From Pelobacter propionicus DSM 2379 (GTDB lineage: Bacteria > Desulfobacterota > Desulfuromonadia > Geobacterales > Pseudopelobacteraceae), in assembly GCF_000015045.1 (NCBI RefSeq), contig NC_008609.1, forward strand, positions 806,001-870,000: DNA of 64,000 nt. The letters run 5' to 3'. The notes under the pieces are model-generated. The model had not been told where the DNA came from, searched no databases, and saw nothing but the letters and a program-made list of their open reading frames with translations. Positions 8,243 to 39,327 of the stretch are shown in pieces; within the stretch, counting starts at the first letter, position 1, and the number at the start of each line of letters is the position of its first letter. The translations under genes were made by a program, and so were the position numbers.

Positions 8243-9361
8243 ATGAATAAACGAGTCCTGTTTGCCATACTTGGCCTCTTGGCCGTCATCGCCATCCTGG
8301 CCGGCGTCAAGTTCCTGCAGATCAAGACCATGATCAACCAGGGCAAAGCCTTCGTGCCGCCGGCCGAGACCGTCACCACGGCGCTGGTCGCCTCCGATAC
8401 CTGGACCACGGACCTGACCGCCGTGGGAACCCTGAGCGCGGTGCAGGGGGTGACTGTTGCGTCGGAGCTGCCGGGGAAGGTGATCAGGATAGCCTTTGAA
8501 TCCGGGACAACGGTCAGGAAGGGGGATCTGCTGGTCAGGCAAGATACCAGTAGCGAAGAGGCCCAGCTTCCCGGACTTCTGGCCCAGGTGAAGCTGGCCC
8601 GGGCCGAACTTGATCGCGCCGCACGGATGGTGGCGGAAAAGATCATCTCCCAGGCGGACTATGACCGTAGCGTAGCACTCCATGACCAAGCCCTGTCCCA
8701 GCTGAACACCGTGCGCGCGACCATCGCCAAAAAGACCATCCGCGCCCCTTTCGCTGGTAGGGTCGGCATCCGCCAGGTCAACCTGGGGCAGGTCCTCAAG
8801 GAGGGAGATGCCATCGTCACCCTGCAGAGTCTGAATCCGATCCATGTGGATTTTTCCCTCCCCCAGCAGCAGCTGGCCCGCCTGCGCACCGGGCAGGGGA
8901 TGCGCCTGACCTGTGACGCACTTCCGGGCGAGACCTTCCAGGGGCGTATCAGTGCCATCACGCCGCTGGTGGATGTGGATACAAGAAACGTCAAACTGCA
9001 GGCCACCGCCCTCAACCCGGGCGAGAAGCTGCGGCCCGGGATGTTCGTCTCGGTGGCGGTGGGGCTGTCCGAGCAGCGCCCGGTGCGGGTGATTCCCGCC
9101 ACGGCGGTGCTCTATGCGCCCTACAGCGACTCGGTCTTTGTGGTGGAGCAGACAAAGGATCGCAAGGGGAAACAACTGCGTCAGCAGTTCGTCCGGCTGG
9201 GAGAGAAGCGGGGTGATTTCGTGGCGGTTACGGCCGGACTGAAGGGTGACGAGACGCTGGTCAGTACCGGGGTGTTCAAGCTGCGCAACGGCCAAGGGGT
9301 GGTGGTGGACAACCGGCTGGCCCCCCGCTTCTCCTCGGCACCCAGGCCGGAGAACAATTGA
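8243..9361 (+). CDS. RND efflux periplasmic adaptor (membrane fusion protein)
   Basis: Protein of 372 residues. It begins with a membrane anchor (residues 5-24), then a lipoyl-like half (VASELPGKVIRIAFESGTTV), a short alpha-helical hairpin, the second lipoyl half (IRAPFAGRVGIRQVNLGQ) and beta-barrel domains. This is the pattern of HlyD/AcrA adaptors that join the inner-membrane pump to the outer-membrane duct. ATG 8243 is chosen because it starts exactly at the anchor; upstream codons in the frame overlap the previous gene. It ends 3 bases before the pump gene, so the two are surely co-expressed. Confidence 0.92.
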   Translation: MNKRVLFAILGLLAVIAILAGVKFLQIKTMINQGKAFVPPAETVTTALVASDTWTTDLTAVGTLSAVQGVTVASELPGKVIRIAFESGTTVRKGDLLVRQDTSSEEAQLPGLLAQVKLARAELDRAARMVAEKIISQADYDRSVALHDQALSQLNTVRATIAKKTIRAPFAGRVGIRQVNLGQVLKEGDAIVTLQSLNPIHVDFSLPQQQLARLRTGQGMRLTCDALPGETFQGRISAITPLVDVDTRNVKLQATALNPGEKLRPGMFVSVAVGLSEQRPVRVIPATAVLYAPYSDSVFVVEQTKDRKGKQLRQQFVRLGEKRGDFVAVTAGLKGDETLVSTGVFKLRNGQGVVVDNRLAPRFSSAPRPENN

Positions 9362-14679: not shown

Positions 14680-15123
14680 ATGATTCTCGAAAAGAAGCAT
14701 GCGTTCAACAGGTTTGCCGCGGGCAAGGGGCTGCGCTCCACCAGGCAGCGCGAAATCATCCTTGATTTCTTCCTCGCCACCCATCAGCACGTCAGCGTCG
14801 AAGAGTTGTATCTGAAGATCAAGGCGGTGCATCCCGGCATTGGTAGCGCAACGGTTTACCGCACCCTCAAGCTGTTCGTTGAGGCCGGACTGGCCCGCGA
14901 GGTGCTGCTGCATGACGGGCAGACCCGCTACGAACATGTGGTGGAAGGTGAGCACCACGATCACCTGGTCTGTACCGGCTGCAACGCGGTCATCGAGTTC
15001 GAGAACGAGACCATCGAGAAGTTGCAGGATGAGATCGCCACCCGCCACGGTTTTCTGATCAAGAGTCACAAGCTGGAGATTTACGGGCTCTGCGCCCGCT
15101 GCCGCGCAGCGGCGAAGACCTAG
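14680..15123 (+). CDS. fur: Fur-family metal-responsive repressor
   Basis: Protein of 147 residues. It has the N-terminal winged helix (STRQREIILDFF, then SVEELYLKIK and GSATVYRTLKLFVEAGLA) and the metal-binding half with HVVEGEHHDHLVCTGC and a second CARC pair near the C-terminus, giving two CxxC zinc sites plus the HHDH regulatory site. It represses iron-uptake genes when ferrous iron is plentiful. Its position directly before a feoB operon and the iron theme of the window support a true Fur rather than Zur or PerR, but the paralogues cannot be separated with certainty from sequence. Confidence 0.88.
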   Translation: MILEKKHAFNRFAAGKGLRSTRQREIILDFFLATHQHVSVEELYLKIKAVHPGIGSATVYRTLKLFVEAGLAREVLLHDGQTRYEHVVEGEHHDHLVCTGCNAVIEFENETIEKLQDEIATRHGFLIKSHKLEIYGLCARCRAAAKT

Positions 15124-15170
15124 CCCATCCAACGCCTCTCACCGTCTCGGGAACTGTTTTTTTGTGTATG

Positions 15171-15185
15171 TGAAAATGAATGTCA
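15171..15185 (+). promoter_or_regulatory. Fur-box-like site before feoB
   Basis: TGAAAATGAATGTCA is close to the classical AT-rich Fur half-site arrangement and is nearly palindromic. It overlaps the upstream in-frame ATG at 15180, which favours the later start at 15210. Function is inferred from resemblance and position after fur. Confidence 0.45.
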
Positions 15186-15209
15186 AGAACATGGATAGGG
15201 TGTGATTGT

Positions 15210-17207
15210 ATGGCATCATGTTGCGCGAATCAGACGGAAGTGTCGAACAGGGGGGATACCCTCAAACGGGTAGTCCTGGTGGGCAACCCCAATGTGGGCA
15301 AGAGTGTGCTGTTCAATGCCCTCACCGGGGCGTATGTCACCGTTTCAAACTACCCCGGAACCTCGGTGGAGGTCTCCCGAGGCAACGCGACGATCCAGGG
15401 CAGGAGCTGGCAGGTCATCGACACCCCCGGCATGTACTCGATCCACACCATCACCGAGGAGGAGCGGGTTGCCCGCGAGATCATCCTCCACGAAACACCC
15501 GACGTGGTACTGCACGTCCTAGATGCCCGAAACCTGGAGCGGATGCTGGCCATGACCATCCAGTTGATCGAGGCCGGGCTTCCGGTGATCCTGGTGGTCA
15601 ACATCATGGATGAAGCGGAACGCATGGGGCTGAAGATCGACCTGAATCTGCTGCAGGAACGCCTGGGCATTCCGGTGATCGGGGCAGCCACGGCCCGCAA
15701 GCGCGGACTGGATCAGATACGCTCTGCCCTTGCTTCCTACGCAAGCGGAAAGGAAGGGGCGGCGCCGATGCAATTCCCCTACGCCAGTCCGCTGGAACGC
15801 AACGTGCAGGAGGTGGTTGGGCTGATGAAGGGGGAATATATCCTCTCTCGCCGCGCCCTGGCTATTCTGCTCTTGCAGCGGGACGAGGAGATCGTCTCCC
15901 TGGTGCGGGAGCGTGAGGGCGAGGGATATGCGGCCATCGCCGCAAAAGTCGCTTCCATCTCCTTCGAGCGCCGCGAATCCTTTCACCTGGACCTCTCCCT
16001 TGAGCGTAACAGCATGGTCAGGAATCTGGTCAAAGGCGCCTTCGTGGCACCGGATACGCGGGTGGTGACCTGGTCCGAGCATCTCTCCCGCTGGGCGGTG
16101 AACCCCTTGACCGGTGTGCCGTTGCTGCTGCTGGTGCTCTACTTCGGCCTGTACCGCTTTGTCGGCGATTTCGGCGCCGGCACCCTGGTGGACCTGCTGG
16201 AAAACCGGCTGTTCATGGAGCGTTTCAATCCCTGGATTACCGGCTGGGTCAAGGAGATCGTCCCCTGGGAGATCATCCAGGAACTGTTCGTGGGCGAGTA
16301 CGGCATCATCACCCTGGGTATACGCTACGCGGTGGGGATCATCCTGCCGATCGTGGCCACCTTCTTCATCTTCTTTTCTTTTCTTGAGGATACCGGCTAT
16401 TTCCCGCGCCTGGCGCTGCTGGTGGATCGCGTCTTCAAGAGGTTCGGCATGACCGGCCGGGCGGTGATCCCCATGGTGCTTGGCTTCGGCTGCGACACCA
16501 TGGCAACCATGGTGACCCGAACCCTTGAGACGGTACGTGAACGGGTGATCGCCACGATCCTGCTCTCCCTGGCGATTCCCTGCTCGGCCCAACTGGGGGT
16601 TATCATTGCCCTGCTCTCCAAGGCGCCCGGCGCGCTGGCAGTGTGGGGCGGCTGCCTGATGCTGCTGTTCGTGGTCGTCGGCCTCTTGGCCACCCGGGTG
16701 CTGCCGGGAGATGCGCCCATGTTCTACATGGAGCTTCCCCCCATGCGCCTGCCGCAGGTGAGTAATGTGCTGACCAAGACCTACACCCGCATGCAGTGGT
16801 ACTTCCTGGAGATACTGCCGCTGTTCGTGCTGGCGTCGGTACTGCTCTGGCTGGGCAAGGTGACCGGTTTCTTCGAGAAGGCGGTTGACGCCATGACGCC
16901 GCTCATGGCGTCCCTGGGGCTTCCCCGGGAGACGGCGGTGGCATTCATCTTCGGTTTCTTCCGTCGCGATTACGGTGCCGCCGGCCTGTACGACCTGCAG
17001 ACCAAGGGTTTGATGGATGCCCGCCAGCTGACCGTGGCTGCCGTTACCCTGACCCTGTTCATCCCCTGTGTGGCCCAGTTCCTGATCATGAAGAAGGAGC
17101 GGGGGTGGAAGGTAGCCGGAGCCATCGGCCTGTTCGTGAGCTGTCTTGCCTTCGGCAGCGGCTATCTGCTCAACCAGGTGCTGTTGATCACCGGATTGTT
17201 GACGTGA
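15210..17207 (+). CDS. feoB: Ferrous iron transporter FeoB (first copy)
   Basis: Protein of 665 residues. The N-terminal G domain has GNPNVGKS (residues 25-32), the SNYPGT switch, DTPG and NIMD; then come a GDI helical region and two Gate domains with Cys-containing motifs such as VLGFGCDTMATMV and IPCSAQLGV. It imports Fe2+ through the inner membrane. It is shorter than most FeoB (about 700-770). ATG 15210 (MASCCANQ) is preferred over ATG 15180, which falls in a Fur-box-like site. The stop overlaps the next start, so it is coupled to the zinc-ribbon gene and the FeoA-domain regulator. Confidence 0.92.
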   Translation: MASCCANQTEVSNRGDTLKRVVLVGNPNVGKSVLFNALTGAYVTVSNYPGTSVEVSRGNATIQGRSWQVIDTPGMYSIHTITEEERVAREIILHETPDVVLHVLDARNLERMLAMTIQLIEAGLPVILVVNIMDEAERMGLKIDLNLLQERLGIPVIGAATARKRGLDQIRSALASYASGKEGAAPMQFPYASPLERNVQEVVGLMKGEYILSRRALAILLLQRDEEIVSLVREREGEGYAAIAAKVASISFERRESFHLDLSLERNSMVRNLVKGAFVAPDTRVVTWSEHLSRWAVNPLTGVPLLLLVLYFGLYRFVGDFGAGTLVDLLENRLFMERFNPWITGWVKEIVPWEIIQELFVGEYGIITLGIRYAVGIILPIVATFFIFFSFLEDTGYFPRLALLVDRVFKRFGMTGRAVIPMVLGFGCDTMATMVTRTLETVRERVIATILLSLAIPCSAQLGVIIALLSKAPGALAVWGGCLMLLFVVVGLLATRVLPGDAPMFYMELPPMRLPQVSNVLTKTYTRMQWYFLEILPLFVLASVLLWLGKVTGFFEKAVDAMTPLMASLGLPRETAVAFIFGFFRRDYGAAGLYDLQTKGLMDARQLTVAAVTLTLFIPCVAQFLIMKKERGWKVAGAIGLFVSCLAFGSGYLLNQVLLITGLLT

Positions 17208-17395
17208 AATGCGCATTCTGTGGGCACGAATTTGACGAAAAGGAGGCGCGCCAGGGGTGCGGCGCCTGTCCCGGCGGGTGCCATTCCGTGCACTGTCCGA
17301 AATGCAACTACAGCAATCCGCTGGAAGCGAAGCTGATCAGGAAGATTCGATCGTTGTTCACCAGGAACGACGACCAAGGAGGAGATGGGGCATGA
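17204..17395 (+). CDS. Small zinc-ribbon protein coupled to feoB
   Basis: Protein of 63 residues starting at GTG 17204, which overlaps the feoB stop by four bases (GTGA). Seven Cys and two His are clustered: CAFCGHEF, then CGACPGGCHSVHCPKC, then a basic tail LIRKIRSLFTR. This pattern suggests a zinc ribbon or an iron-binding site, and its place between FeoB and a FeoA-domain protein suggests an accessory role in ferrous iron import or sensing. I know of no established name. Translation is coupled at both ends. Confidence 0.75.
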   Translation: MKCAFCGHEFDEKEARQGCGACPGGCHSVHCPKCNYSNPLEAKLIRKIRSLFTRNDDQGGDGA

Positions 17396-18036
17396 AACTG
17401 TCCGATAAGGCGGAAGAGGTACTGGAGGCGTTGTGGATCGCGGTTGAAGAGGAGCGGGTGCCCGGCCTTGATCCCGCCAAGCTGGGCATCGCCCTGGACG
17501 ACCCGGCCTTCGCGGAGCTGAGCGAGCGCGCCCTGGTGGAGATCAGGCAGGGGGTGGTCTATTTCCGGCCCGAAGGGAGGGAAGAGGGGCGCATGACCAT
17601 TCGTCGTCACCGCCTGGCGGAGCGGCTGATGATGGACGTGCTCAACATCCGCGGCGAGGATGGCAATCTCAAGGCCTGCCAGTTCGAGCACCTGCTCAGC
17701 GAGGGGGTCGATACCAAGGTCTGTACCATGCTCAACCACCCCACCACCTGCCCCCACGGAAAGCCGATCCCGCCGGGTGAATGCTGCCATCAGGCGTTGG
17801 CCGAGGGGGACCTGGGAGTGGTGGCGCTGACCGAGCTCAAGTCGGGACAGGAGGGGGAAATCGCCTATATCCAGACCGATGACAGCAAGAAGATGCAGAA
17901 ACTGATGGCCATGGGGGTCCTGCCGGGAAACAGGATCACCCTGGTGCAGGCCTTTCCCTCGTACATCTTCCGGGTGGGCTACTCCGAGTTCGCCATTGAC
18001 ACCAACCTGGCCAAAGAGATTTTCGTCAGGAAATAG
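17392..18036 (+). CDS. DtxR-like metal-dependent regulator with C-terminal FeoA domain
   Basis: Protein of 214 residues. The first 60 residues look like a winged helix variant; residues 60-130 hold the DtxR-type dimerisation and metal-site region (HRLAERLMMDVL, EHLLSEGV, CTMLNHPTTCPHGKPIPPGECC), and residues 138-214 form a FeoA/SH3-like domain (MQKLMAMGVLPGNRITLVQ). A Cys-rich CPHGKPIPPGECC segment is typical of this group. It overlaps the previous gene by four bases and has GGAGG upstream. It could act as an iron-responsive repressor, as the FeoA partner of FeoB, or both. Confidence 0.82.
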   Translation: MKLSDKAEEVLEALWIAVEEERVPGLDPAKLGIALDDPAFAELSERALVEIRQGVVYFRPEGREEGRMTIRRHRLAERLMMDVLNIRGEDGNLKACQFEHLLSEGVDTKVCTMLNHPTTCPHGKPIPPGECCHQALAEGDLGVVALTELKSGQEGEIAYIQTDDSKKMQKLMAMGVLPGNRITLVQAFPSYIFRVGYSEFAIDTNLAKEIFVRK

Positions 18037-30371: not shown

Positions 30372-30599
30372 CTAGTCCAGGCAGAGTTTGCGACGTTTGG
30401 CACTCCAGAGGTTGACCGCCTCCCTCATGATGTCGGAGATGCTCTTGGAAGTCGTCTTGGAAAGTTTCTCCAGCATCATCTTCTGGTTGTCGCTGATGCG
30501 CAGGGAGATGATGTTCTGCAGTTGCTCTTTCTTGTTCTTTTTCGAGCGGGATGCCTTGGGCTCTTTCGTTATCTGTTTCTTGGTGGTTGCGTGTGACAT
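30372..30599 (-). CDS. Ribbon-helix-helix small protein (paralogue 1)
   Basis: Protein of 75 residues. A basic N-terminal arm (about residues 1-28, Lys-rich) precedes a predicted ribbon-helix-helix fold: strand IISLRISDNQ, helix MMLEKLSKTTS, turn, helix SISDIMREAVNLWS, and a final KRRKLCLD. It probably binds DNA as a dimer, or regulates a partner. AAGGAG lies seven bases before ATG at 30599. The gene at 38009-38233 is a clear paralogue. It sits between the Mn riboswitch and TerC, so it may be induced by manganese. Confidence 0.8.
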   Translation of the reverse strand: MSHATTKKQITKEPKASRSKKNKKEQLQNIISLRISDNQKMMLEKLSKTTSKSISDIMREAVNLWSAKRRKLCLD

Positions 30600-30684
30600 A
30601 TGAGTCTCCTTGATTTTTTTTGTTGTACGGGGCTCTGCCCCTCCAGCGCATGATGCATGGATTGTACCATGTCTCATGCGGGCC

Positions 30685-31124: not shown

Positions 31125-31228
31125 CTATGGTGAGGAAATGTGAGAAAAAAGCTTTACAGTGCAGCGGAAGAATGATATTGAAAACAAAGTTCAAATTCAA
31201 ATATCCGGTGCGAACGGGAGGAACTCCG

Positions 31229-31909
31229 ATGGACAGAGAAACGGCTTTCGCGGAATACCATGGACAGCGACCATCATGGCTCTGGATCGCTCATCGCTAC
31301 CCTTCGGGAATGGACTGTCTGGCCGCATTCATCGCCCTGGAGGCTGCGGAGGTTCTGGCTGGCGAAAAACCTTCGGTACTCATCGGTGTGCCGGATCGTG
31401 CCCGGGCCTGCGGCCGCAACCTCCATAGCCTCTGGCTGGAACATGGGGCTGAGTTGATGGAACGTACCTGTCTCTCGGCGCGGGAGATTCGCAGAGGTGC
31501 CGGGTTTCTTCAGTTGCTCCTCTCTGTTCCCGATGATTTTTCCCGATTTCTGGCGCGACGCGATGTGTCCAGCTTGTTGCGCAAGGCGGGATATCAGGAA
31601 CCGTTTAGTGCCGAGCATGCTCTGGACCAGTTGGAGCAGCGGATGAATGCCGGGACGTTTCCCCATGAAATCGGCATATTTCTCGGGTATCCGCTCAAGG
31701 ATGTGGCCGCCTTCATGGGCTGGATCAGGCTTCCTTTCGCCTGCCAGGGGCCGTGGAAAATGTATGGCGATCCCCGGGCCAGCCTGGGTCTGGCGGAGCG
31801 TTTCCGGGCCTGTCGTCGGGGAATGGCGGAACGTCTGGCGGCAACGTCTTCGGCTCTGGAGTGCGTCGTGTCGTCCTCCCGTTCGGTTGAGTCGTTTTTG
31901 TGTCCATAA
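31229..31909 (+). CDS. DUF3793-family protein
   Basis: Protein of 226 residues without signal or membrane segments. The family character is seen in RPSWLWIAHRYP, CLAAFIALEAAEVLAGEKPSVL, then FPHEIGIFLGYPLKDVAAFMGW, a motif conserved in DUF3793 proteins. The biochemical role is not established; members commonly sit beside DUF2325, flavodoxin and ferrous iron genes, which is true here as well. ATG 31229 has GGGAGGA 6 bases upstream. The upstream frame to 31127 crosses regulatory sequence and is rejected. It opens the second iron-related block. Confidence 0.8.
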   Translation: MDRETAFAEYHGQRPSWLWIAHRYPSGMDCLAAFIALEAAEVLAGEKPSVLIGVPDRARACGRNLHSLWLEHGAELMERTCLSAREIRRGAGFLQLLLSVPDDFSRFLARRDVSSLLRKAGYQEPFSAEHALDQLEQRMNAGTFPHEIGIFLGYPLKDVAAFMGWIRLPFACQGPWKMYGDPRASLGLAERFRACRRGMAERLAATSSALECVVSSSRSVESFLCP

Positions 31910-31948
31910 TTTGATAATGGATATCAAAGTCCAGAAAAGGAGAAATAT

Positions 31949-32263
31949 ATGTGTGTTGCGGTGATTGGTGGCGTGCGGCGGCTTGGCCCACATTACCTGC
32001 GGGCAGCGGAACGGATGGGGGTTGAGTTGCGACTGTTCAACGAACCTGGGGCGGAAATGGCCGACAAGCTCTATCGAGCTGACGCGATGATCATTTTTAC
32101 CAACATGGTGTCCCACAACGGCAGGCGGTTGGCGAAAAAGGCCGCGAAGCTCCATGGTATACCGGTATTCATGCATCACGCCTGCGGTCTGTGTACCCTG
32201 CGGGAGTGCCTGAATTGCCTAAAAATAGTGAGCGACGCTTCGTCCGGCGGACGTTGTTCGTGA
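31949..32263 (+). CDS. DUF2325-family protein
   Basis: Protein of 104 residues. It starts MCVAVIGGVRRLGPHY and contains IIFTNMVSHNGRRLAKKAA and HGIPVFMHHACGLCTLREC, matching the DUF2325 pattern of a small Rossmann-like domain with a Cys/His-rich end (CGLCTLRECLNC). The clustered Cys and His could hold a metal or iron-sulfur centre; function is unknown. AAGGAG lies 7 bases before the start. It is the direct neighbour of DUF3793 and precedes the FeoA/FeoB genes, suggesting a role under changing iron supply. The following 200 bases hold no gene. Confidence 0.8.
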   Translation: MCVAVIGGVRRLGPHYLRAAERMGVELRLFNEPGAEMADKLYRADAMIIFTNMVSHNGRRLAKKAAKLHGIPVFMHHACGLCTLRECLNCLKIVSDASSGGRCS

Positions 32264-32465
32264 AGCACCGCGTTCCGCGTAGTGGGGAGGTTGTGGTGGA
32301 CACGGATGGCGGTGGGTGTACATGGAGTTTTTGTACCGTTCCCGCTGGTTGGGGGGCGGAGCGGTTCCGGTGGTGGGACGCCGGTTTGATTGGGTGATGT
32401 GTGGAGAGGAACGGACGGCCGATTCGTCGGTCGAGTGGTTCATAGTACAAAAAAGGGGAACGAAA

Positions 32466-33275
32466 ATGGAAAAACGGGTAGCTGGTAAGCTGTGCGCGAA
32501 GATGGTTGTGGCCGGATGTCTTGTTGTGGGTGCGGGAAACGCGTTTGCCGGACCGCCACTGGTGACCGACGATGCCGGCATCGTGGATGTGGGGCACCTG
32601 GAGGTGGAACTGAACGGCTCCTACGCCCATGACAGCGAGCGCGAGGATGGTGTCAGGGTTAAGAGCGATCTGTTTGACGGTGAGGTCAAGCTGACAACCG
32701 GCCTGCTGAAGAACCTGGGGGTCTCCCTGGCTCTGCCCTACGCCTTCAGCGCACGGAGTTATGAAGATGGCGGGTTGACCAGTTCCACCGAGGGAGTGGG
32801 GGATGCGCTCTTCGAACTGAAATACGTCTTTTTTGAACAGAATGACCTGGCGCTGACCCTGAAGCCGACCCTGTATCTTCCCACCGGAAGGCGCAGCATG
32901 TCCGAGGGACACTGGCAGCCCGGTGTCACCCTGATCGCCACCAAGGAATTCGCCGACGGTGCATACGCGCTGCACGGGAATCTTGGGTATGAGCACCATT
33001 TCTATCGCACGGCAGACAAGGCGGGGAGCCGCAGCGACCTGTGGAGCGCCTCTGTTGCCGGTGAGGCGGAGCTTGTTCCCAAACTCACCGGAATGCTTGA
33101 CTTCGGTGTTTCCCGTAACAGCGATACCTCCACCAGTACACCTCTCGTCTATGGTCTGGCCGGTTTTCGTTACGAAGTGAACGAGTATCTGGATGTGGAT
33201 CTGGGCGTCAAGGTCGGTCTGACCAAGCCCGAGGACGACGTGGCTGCGCTGTACGGGATCGTGCTGAAGTTCTGA
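32466..33275 (+). CDS. Outer-membrane beta-barrel protein (MetA-pathway/transporter-like)
   Basis: Protein of 269 residues. A signal peptide ends near GNAFA (residue 26-27), and the mature part begins GPPLVTDDAGIVDVGHLEVEL, the standard opening of this outer-membrane family. It continues as alternating amphipathic strands (VGDALFELKYVFF, LALTLKPTLYLPTGRR) and ends in Phe, the usual outer-membrane insertion signal. Its cargo is unknown; placed directly before feoAAB it may admit iron or another small solute. ATG 32466 has AGGGGAA upstream and removes 50 non-secretory residues from the longer frame. Confidence 0.78.
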   Translation: MEKRVAGKLCAKMVVAGCLVVGAGNAFAGPPLVTDDAGIVDVGHLEVELNGSYAHDSEREDGVRVKSDLFDGEVKLTTGLLKNLGVSLALPYAFSARSYEDGGLTSSTEGVGDALFELKYVFFEQNDLALTLKPTLYLPTGRRSMSEGHWQPGVTLIATKEFADGAYALHGNLGYEHHFYRTADKAGSRSDLWSASVAGEAELVPKLTGMLDFGVSRNSDTSTSTPLVYGLAGFRYEVNEYLDVDLGVKVGLTKPEDDVAALYGIVLKF

Positions 33276-33294
33276 GTAAAGGGAGGAGATGGTC

Positions 33295-33555
33295 ATGATG
33301 CTTGGTTTGATGAGCGCGGGAGAAGAGTGTGAGATCGTGAAGATCGGCCACTGCGGTAACTGTACCTGTGGGGATGGAAATCACTCCCATGGGGAGGGGA
33401 CGGTGACCCGGGCTGAAGAGATGGGACTCCGGGTCGGTAAACGAATTGAAATGTTGCGCAACGAGGGGAACATGCTGCTGGTGCTGGTGGACAACTCCCG
33501 TATCGCTCTGGATCGTCGCATGGCGATGAAAATAACGGTCAGGAGGAACGACTGA
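33295..33555 (+). CDS. feoA: FeoA-like protein with Cys/His-rich insert
   Basis: Protein of 86 residues with the SH3-like FeoA fold: an N-terminal LGLMSAGEECEIVKI strand, then an insert CGNCTCGDGNHSHGEG, then VTRAEEMGLRVGKRIEMLR and a final strand DRRMAMKITVRR. Ordinary FeoA proteins lack this insert of three Cys and two His, which looks like a metal site. ATG 33295 is spaced eight bases from GGAGG; ATG 33289 and 33298 are alternatives. Its stop overlaps the next feoA start by one base, so the proteins are made together with FeoB. Confidence 0.82.
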   Translation: MMLGLMSAGEECEIVKIGHCGNCTCGDGNHSHGEGTVTRAEEMGLRVGKRIEMLRNEGNMLLVLVDNSRIALDRRMAMKITVRRND

Positions 33556-33785
33556 TGCAACTGGCAGTCATGAAACCGGGGCAGGAGGGAACGATTGCCC
33601 GTATCGATACAGCGGCCGGCCCGATCAAGCGGCGTCTGATGGACATGGGGATTCTGGCGGGCGAGCGGGTCAGGGTGGAGAAGGTGGCGCCCCTGGGCGA
33701 CCCTCTGGAGGTGAGCATCAAGGGGTATCGCCTCTCCCTGCGCAAGAAGGAAGCCGAGGGGATTCATGTGGAGGTGTCGCCATGA
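33555..33785 (+). CDS. feoA: FeoA
   Basis: Protein of 76 residues of normal FeoA size. It has MKPGQEGTIARIDTAAGPIKRRLMDMGILAGERVRVEKVAP and the closing strand GYRLSLRKKEAEGIHVEV, the classic SH3-like FeoA pattern. FeoA is a small cytoplasmic partner needed for ferrous iron import by FeoB. It overlaps the previous feoA by one base and feoB by four bases (ATGA), so all three are translationally coupled. Confidence 0.92.
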   Translation: MQLAVMKPGQEGTIARIDTAAGPIKRRLMDMGILAGERVRVEKVAPLGDPLEVSIKGYRLSLRKKEAEGIHVEVSP

Positions 33786-35968
33786 GCATGACCGACACCA
33801 GGCAAAGCCGGGGGGAGGGAAGAAGGGTCCTCACCGTTGCCGTTGCCGGCAACCCCAACGTGGGTAAGTCTACCCTGATCAACGCCATCGCCGGTACCCG
33901 CCTGCAGGTGGGCAACTGGCCCGGCGTGACCGTGGAGAAGAAGGAGGCCCTGTTCGAACTGGACGGTTTGAAGATCAGGCTGGTGGACCTGCCCGGAACC
34001 TACTCCCTTTCCCCCTATACCCAGGAGGAGATCATTGCCCGGGACTTCCTGGTGCATGAGAAGCCGGACCTGATCGTCAACGTGGTGGATGCCACCAATC
34101 TGGAGCGCAACCTGTACCTGACGGTGCAGCTCCTGGAACTGGGCATTCCGCTGGTCATGGCGCTGAACATGTCCGACGAGGCCGATGCAAAGGGGTACCG
34201 CATCGACGGTGACGGGATCGAGCAGATGATGGGGATCCGGGTTATCCCCACCTCCGCCACCAGGCGCACGGGGCTTGAGTCGCTCCAGAAAGCCCTGGGG
34301 GAGTACGCCGAAGCTCCGGATAGCAGGCGGCCGCGCACGCTCAACTACGGCGACGACATGGAGAGGGCGCTGGCATGCATACGGGAGCATCTGCTGCTGC
34401 TGCATCCGGCCCTTGTGGAGAGTTTTCCCGAACGCTGGCTTCTCCTCAGGCTGCTGGAGGGGGATGAGCGGGTGCGCGCCGATGCCAACCTGCCCGCCTC
34501 GGCCCTGCCCCAGGAGGCCTTCGAGCATCTGCGGCGCGCCCATGGCGAGGACCTGGAGGCGCTCCTGGCGGACGTGCGCTATTCCCTGGCCACCGGACTG
34601 GCCCGGGAGGTCGTGCAGCGCACCGAGCAGCGCAATCTGGAGATGACCGAGCGCATCGACCGGGTGGTGCTGAACCGCTTCCTGGGCATCCCGATTTTCC
34701 TGGTGGCCATGTGGCTTTTGTTCAAACTGACCTTCGACCTCTCCTCCCCCTTTGGCGACTGGATCGATGCCATGACCAACGGCCCCTTTAAGCGCTGGGC
34801 CGCAACGCTCCTGGGAGGGATAGGCGCGCCGGACTGGACCGTCTCTCTGGTGAACGACGGCATCATCGCCGGGGTCGGTTTCGTGCTGGTCTTCGTGCCG
34901 GTGATCTTTGCCATGATGTTTTTCATCACCTTCCTGGAGGGGAGCGGTTACATGGCCAGGGCCGCCTTTGTCATGGATCGGGCCATGCACGCCATCGGCC
35001 TGCACGGAAAATCCTTCATCCCCATGCTGCTGGGGTTCGGCTGCAACGTGCCGGGCATCTACGCCACCCGTACTCTGGAGAATCCCCGGGACAAGGTGCT
35101 GACCGCGCTGCTGATCCCGCTCATGTCCTGCGGCGCGCGGCTGCCGGTGTACGTGCTTTTCGCCGGGGTGTTCTTCCCGGATAACTCCGGCACGGTGATC
35201 TGGTCCCTGTACGTGTTGGGTATCCTGCTGGCGGTCCTGATGGGATTCATCTTCAAGAAGACCCTCTTCCGGGGCGAGGCGCCCATGTTCATCATGGAAC
35301 TGCCCCCCTACCGCATGCCCTCCTTCTCCAGTCTCTGCCTGCATACCTGGGAGAAGGGGAAGCACTTCCTCTACAAGGCCGGCACCTATATCCTGGCCGT
35401 TTCCGTCCTGGTCTGGTTCATGCTGAACCTCCCGTGGGGCGTGGAGCAGAAGCGTGACTCCTATCTGGGCAAGGCGGGGGCCGCCATCGCCCCGATCTTC
35501 GAGCCGGCCGGCTTTGGAACCTGGGAAGCCTCGGCATCGCTGATCACCGGCGTCATCGCCAAGGAGATCGTGGTGGGCACCATGGGCGAGGTCTATACCC
35601 CCAAACACGAAGAGAAGGAGGAAACTCCCACCCTGGGAGAGGACCTGAAGGAGATCGTCGTCTCCTTCGCCGGTGCGGCCAAAACGGCGGTCACGACACT
35701 CCTGTTCATCCCGGGTGACGAGGAGCCGGAGGAGGATCACCCCTCCCTGAGACAGGCTCTGTCCGCTGCCTTTACCCCCCTTTCGTCCTATGCCTTCATG
35801 GCCTTCGTGCTCCTGTACATGCCCTGTGTCATCGTGGGGATCGCCATGCGCCAGGAGTTCGGGACCTGGAAATGGGCCGGGGTCGGCTTCCTCTACCAGA
35901 CGGTGCTGGCCTGGGTGGTGGCGGTGATCATCTACCAGGGGGGGCGCCTTCTGGGATTGGGAGGGTAG
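33782..35968 (+). CDS. feoB: Ferrous iron transporter FeoB (second copy)
   Basis: Protein of 728 residues. The G domain has GNPNVGKS (residues 23-30), the GNWPGVTVEKKE switch region, DLPGTYSL and NMSDEAD; the membrane part has the Gate motifs MLLGFGCNVPGIYATRTL and LMSCGARLPVYVLF with conserved Cys. It imports Fe2+ using GTP. The switch sequence (NWPGVTVEKKE) is the common FeoB form, whereas the first copy at 15210 has SNYPGTSVEV, so the two belong to different subtypes. It is coupled to two upstream FeoA proteins and followed by a FeoB-associated small protein. Confidence 0.95.
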   Translation: MSMTDTRQSRGEGRRVLTVAVAGNPNVGKSTLINAIAGTRLQVGNWPGVTVEKKEALFELDGLKIRLVDLPGTYSLSPYTQEEIIARDFLVHEKPDLIVNVVDATNLERNLYLTVQLLELGIPLVMALNMSDEADAKGYRIDGDGIEQMMGIRVIPTSATRRTGLESLQKALGEYAEAPDSRRPRTLNYGDDMERALACIREHLLLLHPALVESFPERWLLLRLLEGDERVRADANLPASALPQEAFEHLRRAHGEDLEALLADVRYSLATGLAREVVQRTEQRNLEMTERIDRVVLNRFLGIPIFLVAMWLLFKLTFDLSSPFGDWIDAMTNGPFKRWAATLLGGIGAPDWTVSLVNDGIIAGVGFVLVFVPVIFAMMFFITFLEGSGYMARAAFVMDRAMHAIGLHGKSFIPMLLGFGCNVPGIYATRTLENPRDKVLTALLIPLMSCGARLPVYVLFAGVFFPDNSGTVIWSLYVLGILLAVLMGFIFKKTLFRGEAPMFIMELPPYRMPSFSSLCLHTWEKGKHFLYKAGTYILAVSVLVWFMLNLPWGVEQKRDSYLGKAGAAIAPIFEPAGFGTWEASASLITGVIAKEIVVGTMGEVYTPKHEEKEETPTLGEDLKEIVVSFAGAAKTAVTTLLFIPGDEEPEEDHPSLRQALSAAFTPLSSYAFMAFVLLYMPCVIVGIAMRQEFGTWKWAGVGFLYQTVLAWVVAVIIYQGGRLLGLGG

Positions 35969-35972
35969 CGGT

Positions 35973-36107
35973 ATGGGGGGGACGGACCTGATGCTGATGC
36001 TGGCAATCCTGGCGGCAGCCCTGTGGCTGCTCTACCGCTCCCTGTGGAAGAGCCGGGGCACATGCCCCGGCTGCCCCGGGAACGGCTGCTCCGGCAAGCA
36101 CCGCTGA
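35973..36107 (+). CDS. FeoB-associated Cys-rich membrane protein, 44 residues
   Basis: A gene of 44 codons plus stop, starting 5 bases after the feoB stop. The product has one membrane helix (MLMLAILAAALWLLY, residues 7-21), a basic turn and a Cys-rich tail CPGCPGNGCSGKHR with three Cys. This matches the FeoB-associated Cys-rich membrane protein family in size, topology and place. The role is unknown; an iron-delivery or gating part for FeoB is a reasonable inference. GAGGGTAGCG ahead of the ATG gives a usable ribosome site. Confidence 0.8.
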   Translation: MGGTDLMLMLAILAAALWLLYRSLWKSRGTCPGCPGNGCSGKHR

Positions 36108-36248: not shown

Positions 36249-36998
36249 ATGTCAGAAATATACGTTGATGAGATGTTCGTGGGGGAGGCGGCAGAAATTA
36301 TGTCCATCAGCGACGTATTCCCCGAATACCGGCAGTTGCGCACCATGGGGTTCCGTGAGGGAAGGTTGGTGGATCTTCTGCACTTCGATCCGCTGATTAC
36401 CAGGAAGCTGGTCTTGCGGGTGGAGGGCATGCGCCTGGCAATGGGGGCGTCCTGCGCCGCTCACATAAGGGTCAGGCCGCTGAAGAGCGCCTATCTTCAC
36501 CTGCGGGACATGGCCCACTACGACAACCTGACCGGCTGCTTCAACCGCCATGCAGCCGGGACCGTCGTGCGCCAGGAGGTGGAACGCTTTTCCAGTCTGG
36601 GGCTCCCTCTGGCGCTGCTCATGGCCGACCTGGACCACTTCAAGCGCATCAACGACACCTTTGGTCACACGTCGGGTGACGATGTTCTCAAGTCCTTCGC
36701 CTCGCTCATCCGTCAGGGGCTGCGGCGCTCGGACCTGTTCTGTCGCTGGGGGGGGGAGGAGTTCCTGATCCTGCTCAGGGGGACGCTGAAGGAAGAGGCG
36801 CTGAAGATCGCCGAACGTTTCCGGGAGCGGATCGCCTCGGCGCTATTTCCGCCGTTCAACGAACGCGGAGCCGTTACGGTCAGCATCGGCTGCGCCTGTC
36901 TTCCTCCCGGCAGACCGTTGGAGCGACTGATCGTCGATGCCGATTGTGCCTTGTACCGCGCCAAGCAGGGGGGGAGGAACAGGGTGTGCCTATGTTGA
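36249..36998 (+). CDS. FeoA-like domain fused to GGDEF diguanylate cyclase
   Basis: Protein of 249 residues. Residues 5-78 look like FeoA: GEAAEIMSISDVFPEYRQLRTMGFREGRLVDLLHF, a middle strand, and AAHIRVRPL. Residues 88-249 form a GGDEF domain: DNLTGCFNRHA, MADLDHFKRINDTFGH, the active site GGEEF at 168-172 and an intact inhibitory site RxxD at 159-162. It should make cyclic-di-GMP from GTP with product inhibition. It is cytoplasmic, lies 141 bases after the feoAAB operon and overlaps the HD-GYP gene. The FeoA part may sense iron or bind FeoB, which is inference. Confidence 0.88.
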   Translation: MSEIYVDEMFVGEAAEIMSISDVFPEYRQLRTMGFREGRLVDLLHFDPLITRKLVLRVEGMRLAMGASCAAHIRVRPLKSAYLHLRDMAHYDNLTGCFNRHAAGTVVRQEVERFSSLGLPLALLMADLDHFKRINDTFGHTSGDDVLKSFASLIRQGLRRSDLFCRWGGEEFLILLRGTLKEEALKIAERFRERIASALFPPFNERGAVTVSIGCACLPPGRPLERLIVDADCALYRAKQGGRNRVCLC

Positions 36999-37783
36999 AT
37001 ATGGTACGGGCGACAACGTCGCTTTTTGTTATGAAACGCAACCAAAAGAAGCGCATGCGGAACAGGGGGGAAAGCCTCGACAGTTTCACGTCGCTGCATC
37101 ATCTTGCCGAGGCGCTGGGCAATGCGGTCGATGCCCGTGATTCCCAGCTGTACCGCCATTCCCGGGATGTGGCCGAGGTTTCCTGCGTGCTGGCCCATGC
37201 CATGGGGTTTTCCCGGGAGGAGATAGATGTCATTCACATCGCCGGACACCTGCACGACATCGGCAAGATCGGTATTCCCGATGTCGTGCTGAAAAAAAAA
37301 GGCCCCCTGGACGCAGATGAGTGGCGCTGGATGAGGCTGCATCCCGGAATCGGGGCGGAGATCGTGCGGCCGGTGCCGGCCCTGAACGGTCCGGGAGGGG
37401 TGGCCGACATAATCCTGCGTCACCACGAGCGGTTCGACGGCAAAGGCTACCCCGATGGCCTGGGGGACGACCAGATTCCCCGCGGCGCTCGCATCGTGGC
37501 GGTGGCCGACACCCTCTCGGCGCTCCTGCGCAACCGCTCCTACCGTGCGGGATGCTCCTTCGACCTGGCCTGTGCCGAAATCCGGCGCTGTTCCGGTTCC
37601 CAGTTTGATCCGGTGGTGGTGAAGGTTCTGGAAAAAAACCGGAAAAAGGTTGCCGGATGTCTGGACGCCGCCGAGGAACTCGCCGTCTCGGCCTGCTCTC
37701 CCTACGAGCCTCCTTCTCACGGGTTGTTTGTCCCCGGCGAGATGCTTCTTCAGGAGAGCGCCTCTCTCCCGCATGTGCTGTAA
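36992..37783 (+). CDS. HD-GYP cyclic-di-GMP phosphodiesterase
   Basis: Protein of 263 residues. The HD part reads HLHDIGKIGIPDVVLKKKG, and the second motif is HHERFDGKGYPDGLGDDQIP, so both the HD dyad and the GYP triad are present. It should hydrolyse cyclic-di-GMP. The N-terminal 45 residues are basic with no recognised sensor, and the C-terminal 60 residues are variable. ATG 36992 overlaps the GGDEF gene by seven bases; ATG 37001 and 37031 are possible. Making and destroying enzymes encoded back to back suggest a shared local signalling module. Confidence 0.9.
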   Translation: MLNMVRATTSLFVMKRNQKKRMRNRGESLDSFTSLHHLAEALGNAVDARDSQLYRHSRDVAEVSCVLAHAMGFSREEIDVIHIAGHLHDIGKIGIPDVVLKKKGPLDADEWRWMRLHPGIGAEIVRPVPALNGPGGVADIILRHHERFDGKGYPDGLGDDQIPRGARIVAVADTLSALLRNRSYRAGCSFDLACAEIRRCSGSQFDPVVVKVLEKNRKKVAGCLDAAEELAVSACSPYEPPSHGLFVPGEMLLQESASLPHVL

Positions 37784-38008: not shown

Positions 38009-38233
38009 ATGGAACAGGCACAACATGCACGGGAAACCAGCGGACGGAAATCGCGGCGTAAAGGCGCGCGGAAGAGGGAACAGCTGCACCACATGATATC
38101 CCTGCGAATCAACGACCCTCAGAAGGCATCCCTGGAAAGACTGTCGCTTGCCACGAGCAGGAGCATTTCCGACATCATGCGCGAGGCGGTTACCCTCTGG
38201 AGTAAGAAGCACCGCAGGCTCTGCCTGGAGTGA
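38009..38233 (+). CDS. Ribbon-helix-helix small protein (paralogue 2)
   Basis: Protein of 74 residues with a basic, unstructured N-terminus (GRKSRRKGARKREQ) and a ribbon-helix-helix: MISLRINDPQ, KASLERLSLATS, SISDIMREAVTLWS, ending KKHRRLCLE. It matches the protein at 30372-30599 through the whole fold, with the identical SISDIMREAV core. AAAGGA lies nine bases before ATG 38009. It stands between the cyclic-di-GMP genes and hemP. It could bind the inverted repeat at 37890-37941, but this is speculation. Confidence 0.8.
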   Translation: MEQAQHARETSGRKSRRKGARKREQLHHMISLRINDPQKASLERLSLATSRSISDIMREAVTLWSKKHRRLCLE

Positions 38234-38462: not shown

Positions 38463-38820
38463 CGCGGCGGTCCGGTCAGTGTCTCCGGCCGACGGTACGG
38501 CGGTTTTCCCGATCTCCGCGGCTCCCTATGCTACGCAACCTGCATTCAGGCTTTCGTGCCGGATGCGCATCCCTTTCATACAGCCAGCCACTCATACCCC
38601 TCCACGGTTTGGTAGCCAGCTAATTTTTGACAAGAGAACGAACAACAACGCACCTGTGCCTCACCCGTTTCCGTAGATACGTTCCGGTCTCGGGGCGGCT
38701 GGTGAACGGTCACGCGGGAGCGGTGCTTCGGTGGGTCATCGCCTGCCGGAGCGCTTCCGCCCACTCGCGCCGGAACAGGGACACCGCTTTCGACGCATAC
38801 CAACAACCGGGAGGAATTAC
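38463..38820 (+). other. Long leader region before flavodoxin
   Basis: 358 bases with no supported gene. A possible -35 box TTGACA is at 38629-38634 (in AATTTTTGACAAGAG), but no matching -10 is evident. No known riboswitch pattern was recognised. Confidence 0.4.
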
Positions 38821-39327
38821 ATGGAAAAGGTCGCAGTCATTTACGGTTCAACCACGGGCAATACGGAGAACGTCGCACAGTCGATCAGGGAACTGCTGGG
38901 AGAGGATCGGGCCGACCTGATCAACGTAGCATCGGCCGGGGTGGAGGATTTCAACCGTTACCGGAACCTGATCCTGGGGGCATCAACCTGGGGGCTGGGA
39001 GAGCTGCAGGACGACTGGGACGGAAAGCTGGCGCTGCTGAAGAGTGCCGACCTGAAGGGAAAGCAGATCGCCCTGTTCGGCCTGGGGGACCAGCAGAGTT
39101 ATTCCGAGACGTTCCTTGACGGCATGGGAACACTGTACGAGACGCTGTTGTCGTGTGGCGTCATGCCCATCGGGCAGTGGCCGTCCGAAGGGTATTCCTT
39201 CGGCGCCTCCACCGCATGTGTGGACGGCAATTTTGTCGGGCTGGCCCTGGATGAAGACACGGAGCCGGACAAAACGGAAGGGCGTATCAGAACCTGGTTG
39301 AAGCAGCTTGACACTCAGTGGCTGTAA
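38821..39327 (+). CDS. Flavodoxin
   Basis: Protein of 168 residues, a long-chain flavodoxin. The FMN phosphate loop is GSTTGNTENVAQ at residues 9-20, with the second loop ASTWGLGELQDDW and third DQQSYSETFLDGMG. It is a soluble one-electron carrier that replaces ferredoxin when iron is scarce, which suits its place after hemP and feo genes. GGGAGG lies 7 bases before ATG 38821. Three hairpins follow the gene. Confidence 0.95.
   Translation: MEKVAVIYGSTTGNTENVAQSIRELLGEDRADLINVASAGVEDFNRYRNLILGASTWGLGELQDDWDGKLALLKSADLKGKQIALFGLGDQQSYSETFLDGMGTLYETLLSCGVMPIGQWPSEGYSFGASTACVDGNFVGLALDEDTEPDKTEGRIRTWLKQLDTQWL

Follow-up and report, generated by a model that had tools for sequence, protein, structure and literature searches.

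A FeoA domain fused to a predicted diguanylate cyclase in a conserved ferrous iron transport cassette of mostly anaerobic bacteria

Introduction

What FeoA does has been a matter of long debate, and little is known of inputs by which iron acts directly on cyclic-di-GMP synthesis. A survey of FeoA architectures, from which DtxR-type and non-Feo fusions were removed, describes stand-alone, tandem and FeoB-fused forms (PMC8980893). In the FeoA-FeoB fusion of B. fragilis, FeoA contacts the G domain of FeoB in a nucleotide-dependent manner, by which the GTP form is stabilised and GTP hydrolysis slowed (PMC8980893). The DtxR/IdeR proteins, with a C-terminal FeoA-like domain, join a FeoA-type SH3 domain to a metal-homeostasis regulator, their output being DNA binding. 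Diguanylate cyclases of the PleD, WspR and SiaD type combine a complete GGEEF domain and an I-site with a receiver, PAS, GAF or similar input domain, whereas GacA (Hypr) of the iron-respiring genus Geobacter, a GGDEF enzyme linked to metal respiration, makes cGAMP by means of Ser348 together with a GGDEF motif. In Desulfovibrio, cyclic-di-GMP-type enzymes, gdp (GGDEF) and hdd (HD-domain), have been predicted to be under iron control; these are separate genes, for which neither a FeoA fusion nor linkage to a feo operon was reported (PMC545781).

The protein described here is encoded in a 64,000-nucleotide stretch of Pelobacter propionicus DNA (the window). It shares with FeoA (PF04023), including the B. 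fragilis type, the family and fold, an adjoining feoB and four hydrophobic clamp positions, but its FeoA domain is joined to a GGDEF cyclase instead of FeoB, branches separately from the FeoA1 and FeoA2 proteins encoded in the same operons, and has an invariant E-G two residues past the MG motif, where free FeoA proteins mostly have another residue before that G. The complete GGEEF domain and I-site are those of PleD, WspR and SiaD, whereas the input domain is FeoA; the predicted output is a second messenger, unlike the DNA binding of DtxR/IdeR, whose FeoA domains branch elsewhere in the tree; and an Asp with GGEEF takes the place of the Ser with GGDEF of GacA. FeoA as a cyclase input domain would make both of the questions raised at the outset, that of FeoA function and that of iron inputs, approachable with one soluble protein.

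Results

The fusion gene (36249–36998, + strand) encodes 249 residues, for which a reading of the sequence alone had proposed a FeoA-like domain at residues 5–78 and a GGDEF enzyme at 88–249. Pfam places FeoA (PF04023) at residues 8–77 (35.9 bits against a cut-off of 23, E 8e-9) and a complete GGDEF domain (PF00990) at 89–245 (153 bits), and its FeoA profile is matched by all 16 aligned fusion homologues. The AlphaFold2 model of the whole protein (mean pLDDT 89.6) consists of a five-stranded barrel, a short helix (27–32), a second helix (79–90) and then the GGDEF domain, and the PDB structures closest to it are those of known cyclases (Z about 26). Because the full-length fold search was filled almost wholly by GGDEF domains, the FeoA part was folded (pLDDT 90.2) and searched separately, returning FeoA and the SH3-like domains of DtxR/IdeR with Z scores from 14.0 to 7.4, followed by a gap and then unrelated chains at 5.9, with nothing else above Z 6. 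The SH3-like β-barrel of FeoA is thus recovered, with Z 13.9 to 3e19 and 13.7 to 7r7b over 74–76 residues, and both proposed domains are borne out, the N-terminal one by profile and by structure.

The GG(D/E)EF motif and the nucleotide and metal residues of a diguanylate cyclase are all present in the fusion. GGEEF (168–172) and the RxxD motif (R159–D162), which sits five residues ahead of it at the expected spacing, had been noted as intact from the sequence and are conserved across the 16 aligned fusions, except that L040 has GGDEF and L037 has GGEEI; D127, K132, N135, D144, G168, G169, E171 and K239 are invariant in all 16, as are R159 and D162 of the product-inhibition site. The fusion is predicted to be a canonical product-inhibited diguanylate cyclase in which a FeoA (SH3-like) domain replaces the usual N-terminal sensor. 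Its residue D144 is taken by us to be equivalent to D344 of PleD and to position 348 of GacA. An Asp at this position together with GGEEF predicts specificity for GTP, and hence cyclic-di-GMP, not cGAMP, as the product. In GGDEF enzymes that make cGAMP, a Ser or Thr occupies that position, and only in combination with GGDE[F/Y] (PMC6456294). A cGAMP (Hypr) enzyme was accordingly ruled out on these residues. The source genome contains five FeoA matches and 35 GGDEF matches, the two coinciding only at the fusion; with so many GGDEF matches, the effect of the fusion may be small or local. Frameshifts interrupt the GGDEF part in two assemblies, L039 (about 8270–8304) and L086 (about 7232), and the HD-GYP frame in L126 (about 6780), by assembly error or gene decay.

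The feo genes proposed to precede the fusion were recognised by Pfam: FeoA1 (33289–33555, +; FeoA 52.5 bits), which bears a Cys/His-rich insert HCGNCTCGDGNHSHGEG, the canonical FeoA2 (33555–33785, +; 86.2 bits) and the ferrous iron transporter FeoB (33782–35968, +), with its G domain, cytosolic helical domain and gates. The small FeoB-associated protein claimed to follow them, a Cys-rich membrane protein of 44 residues (35973–36107, +), scores 26.1 bits with the FeoB_associated profile, just under the cut-off of 27. Further 5′ lie genes for a DUF3793 protein (31217–31909, +; 134 bits), a DUF2325 protein (31949–32263, +), which is a conserved companion found in 15 genomes, and an outer-membrane β-barrel of the Phenol_MetA_deg family (32316–33275, +; the true start is probably downstream of 32316), a family also represented in L014, L016 and L017. 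No terminator match was found between 36107 and 36249, and an RNA fold z of 0.49 gives no indication of a structured RNA in the interval from feoB to the fusion. No Rfam family, cyclic-di-GMP riboswitches included, was found in the 64-kb window; RF01051 has 16 matches elsewhere in the source genome. The FeoA1 insert (e.g., CGGCGGGCHSHGQSHHHDHGHHHK), which comes after the first strand and ahead of the MGL motif, varies in sequence by lineage and is a candidate metal-binding loop, missing from FeoA2 and the fusion; insert-bearing FeoA1 proteins are encoded at 33289–33555 of the window and in L016 (9280–9576), L017 (2370–2657) and L036 (7916–8239). The DUF2325 protein (31949–32263 and 14 related loci) is near-constant in all three lineages and has conserved Cys residues near the C-terminus.

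The overlap with an HD-GYP gene seen in the sequence-only reading is real: the most likely start of this gene (36992–37783, +) is the ATG at 36992, giving a 7-base overlap at the stop codon of the fusion (ATGTTGA). The encoded protein has the HD motif, HHERFDGKGYP and the metal ligands. Among ten HD-GYP partners of fusions, HD, HHExxDGxGYP and the seven metal ligands common to both known subgroups (H56, H88, D89, H117, H144, H145 and D173, in alignment numbering) are invariant, whereas the conserved Asp at the position of D308 in PmGH is replaced in all ten by Ser176 (same numbering). At the eighth ligand position, where PmGH has a carboxylate, the window's protein, L015, L036 and L084 have Q, Y or F. 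By the rule of PMC4159591, a binuclear metal centre is predicted for these proteins, in comparison with the three irons of PmGH; given that the D308A substitution impaired PmGH (PMC4159591), the Ser at this position makes the activity of the partners unsure.

The architecture count proposed from the sequence shows that the fusion recurs in 19 genomes, which is not chance: eight of the source class, eight of a thermophile-like order of the same phylum and three of a third group (taken as Nitrospirota), these being the groups that the survey covered, so that the true range may be wider. A search with the N-terminal part found seven fusions, the source's included, among 141 genomes of the source order, all in one family; profile searches added one in another family of the source class, eight among 41 genomes of the thermophile-like order, and three in the group reached via a Nitrospiraceae metagenome record. 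Occurrence is patchy inside each carrier group. Uncounted are L024 (Eisenbacteria), which proved to be a free FeoA, and other weak HMM matches (frames of 76–101 or 217–230 residues), which are free FeoA or, judged by length, probably DtxR-type proteins.

In trees with limited outgroup sampling, 16 fusion GGDEF domains group together as a single clade (support 100/95) when placed among the other GGDEF domains of the source genome, and so do 16 fusion FeoA domains (99/89; 79 columns), which lie on the same side of the tree as FeoA1 and the DtxR-type domains, at a long distance from FeoA2. Each half being one supported clade, the trees suggest one ancient fusion event, both halves having been inherited together since. 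There is no sign of plasmid spread in a tblastn search against plasmids: all matches are below 60% identity, the best-listed ones begin within or past the FeoA part, and L013, the one examined more closely, is a large multidomain sensor.

In three bacterial lineages, comprising mostly anaerobes, the genes around the fusion make up a cassette of DUF2325, FeoA1, FeoA2, FeoB, FeoA-GGDEF and usually HD-GYP. feoA/feoB genes lie beside the fusion in 16 of the 18 assessable genomes (including L087, with feoA genes but no recognised feoB, and L017, with feoB 4 kb off), DUF2325 in 15 genomes and an HD-GYP gene in 13. In the Geobacter-type genomes L015 and L019 the fusion lies away from feo genes, and six genomes have no adjacent HD-GYP, so that neither is obligatory at the locus. 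Membership persists while gene order varies between groups: feoAAB-fusion-HD-GYP in the window and L014, DUF2325-feoA1-fusion-HD-GYP-feoA2-feoB in the thermophile-like order, DUF2325-porin-fusion-HD-GYP-feoA-feoA-feoB in L084, and fusion-HD-GYP-feoA-feoA-feoB in L126. That these genes stay together although their order changes is a good argument for a functional link, one that takes in the HD-GYP enzyme as well. Genes for methyl-accepting chemotaxis proteins lie between the fusion and HD-GYP in L015 (4553–5812, −; a Fur-family gene follows) and after the fusion in L017 (10215–11855, +), hinting at a motility output.

Candidate regulatory sites were sought with the δ-proteobacterial Fur box WTGAAAATNATTTTCAW given by Rodionov et al. 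2004 (PMC545781). With up to three mismatches, it has five matches in the window against 0.14 expected, including sites before fur (14649), feoB-1 (15170) and DUF3793 (31178–31194, +; 3 mismatches). A Fur-like palindrome TTGATAATGGATATCAA (31911–31927, +) lies 21 bp before DUF2325. A palindrome related to the Fur box, TTGATAATNATTATCAA, was found six times over 157 kb of Geobacter-type loci, where 0.2 would be expected, and always ahead of a fusion-carrying unit (in L015, L018 and L019 before the fusion itself or a ribbon-helix-helix–fusion pair); its consensus was refined after hits on these same loci, so that the statistics are optimistic and suggestive only. These candidate palindromes before the transcription unit are suggestive of Fur control of the cassette. 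Upstream of the thermophile-like cassettes there is an imperfect, TTGAAATTnAATTTCAA-like palindrome, possibly an own Fur-type operator, at 7517 in L036, 9295 in L037, 6885 in L038, 7017 in L039, 7012 in L040, 8575 in L086 and 8640 in L087; with up to three mismatches, 29 such matches occur in eight thermophile-like loci against 5.3 expected.

Discussion

On balance, and with modest confidence, we favour a scheme in which the cassette is controlled by Fur, the cyclase is docked on FeoB by way of its FeoA domain, and a metal-dependent (perhaps iron-dependent) HD-GYP hydrolase opposes it. When iron is short, Fur would release the cassette, and the FeoA domain of the fusion, by analogy to free FeoA, may dock at the membrane to the FeoB GTPase domain. 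GGDEF domains act as dimers, and docking would place or pair them, with proximity or allostery acting on the docked cyclase, so that cyclic-di-GMP synthesis may follow the state of the importer. The HD-GYP enzyme needs a metal centre, which consists of iron in the PmGH structure, and by analogy would break down cyclic-di-GMP when the iron supply is ample. The direction in which iron would act on cyclic-di-GMP, the downstream outputs and any effect of iron or FeoB on cyclase activity are putative parts of this scheme. Docking on FeoB is favoured by the reported role of FeoA at GTP-bound FeoB (PMC8980893) and by the clamp of the B. fragilis FeoA, of which four of five positions are hydrophobic across fusions (I27, M30, I59 and L61, corresponding to L30, M33, L63 and M65 of the fusion); the equivalent of the fifth, F23, is variable. 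More tentatively, FeoB may be a signalling receptor whose nucleotide or transport state is converted by a FeoA-type domain into cyclic-di-GMP, opposed by HD-GYP, as a self-contained switch inside the feo operon in three lineages; this is possible, and we would not call it probable.

The main rival is that the FeoA domain senses iron itself, direct Fe2+ binding switching the cyclase without FeoB. In DtxR/IdeR, the SH3-like domain provides part of a metal site, and SH3 domains of these metal-activated repressors are among the top structural neighbours of the FeoA part; moreover, the acidic residues E13, E16, E37 and D47 are invariant in all 16 aligned fusions, and the fusions of L015 and L019 have no nearby feoB. 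However, E13 and E16 are also found in several free FeoA1 proteins, hence are not fusion-specific, and the Cys/His-rich insert of FeoA1 is missing from the fusion; we consider direct sensing unlikely. It is also conceivable that the arrow runs the other way, the fusion being a local source of cyclic-di-GMP that tunes FeoB/FeoA, so that the signal would regulate iron import and not lifestyle. Gene linkage with the transporter agrees with this, as does the lack of any recognised cyclic-di-GMP receptor gene among those of the cassette; the chemoreceptor genes beside the fusion in L015 and L017, however, point to motility, and neither FeoB nor FeoA has a cyclic-di-GMP binding site known to us, making this direction improbable in our view. 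Finally, the cyclase might be simply a further gene of the Fur regulon, with FeoA as a neutral dimerisation or stabilising module, in line with the predicted Fur control of stand-alone GGDEF and HD-domain genes in Desulfovibrio (PMC545781). That FeoA and no other module has been kept in three lineages within reshuffled feo operons renders such purely regulatory linkage improbable.

If the cyclase activity tracks the nucleotide state of FeoB or Fe2+, FeoA would be a reader of the transporter. The idea, first drawn from the sequence, that the fusion links iron import to cyclic-di-GMP gains support from the 19 genomes and the conserved cassette, and the carrier cells probably tie their iron supply to lifestyle via the fused gene, by an apparently undescribed route. 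For Geobacter relatives and sulfate reducers, to which iron is nutrient and respiratory substrate alike, iron supply would then be tied to biofilm, motility and metal respiration. The presumed novelty of the fusion stands in the open-access literature searched, where no description of it or of a feo/GGDEF/HD-GYP cassette was found; the architecture may already be catalogued, without remark, in domain databases. What is new is a conserved, undescribed arrangement of known parts, and the general link between iron and GGDEF proteins is not wholly new, since Fur-controlled GGDEF and HD-domain genes were predicted in Desulfovibrio in 2004 (PMC545781).

Several other features were observed in the window and related loci. 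A second ferrous iron system (14680–18036) comprises fur, a different FeoB and a protein that ends in a FeoA domain, and Fur-box matches precede its fur and feoB; this FeoB matches feoB-1, which adjoins fur in Geobacter (PMC2700814). Short ribbon-helix-helix proteins are encoded on either side of the feo block (30372–30677, −; 38010–38233, +), and similar ones directly 5′ of the fusion, behind the Fur-like palindrome, in L018 and L019. A flavodoxin gene (38800–39327) follows the cassette at a short distance, which fits an iron-sparing regulon, and in L018 another comes after the fusion.
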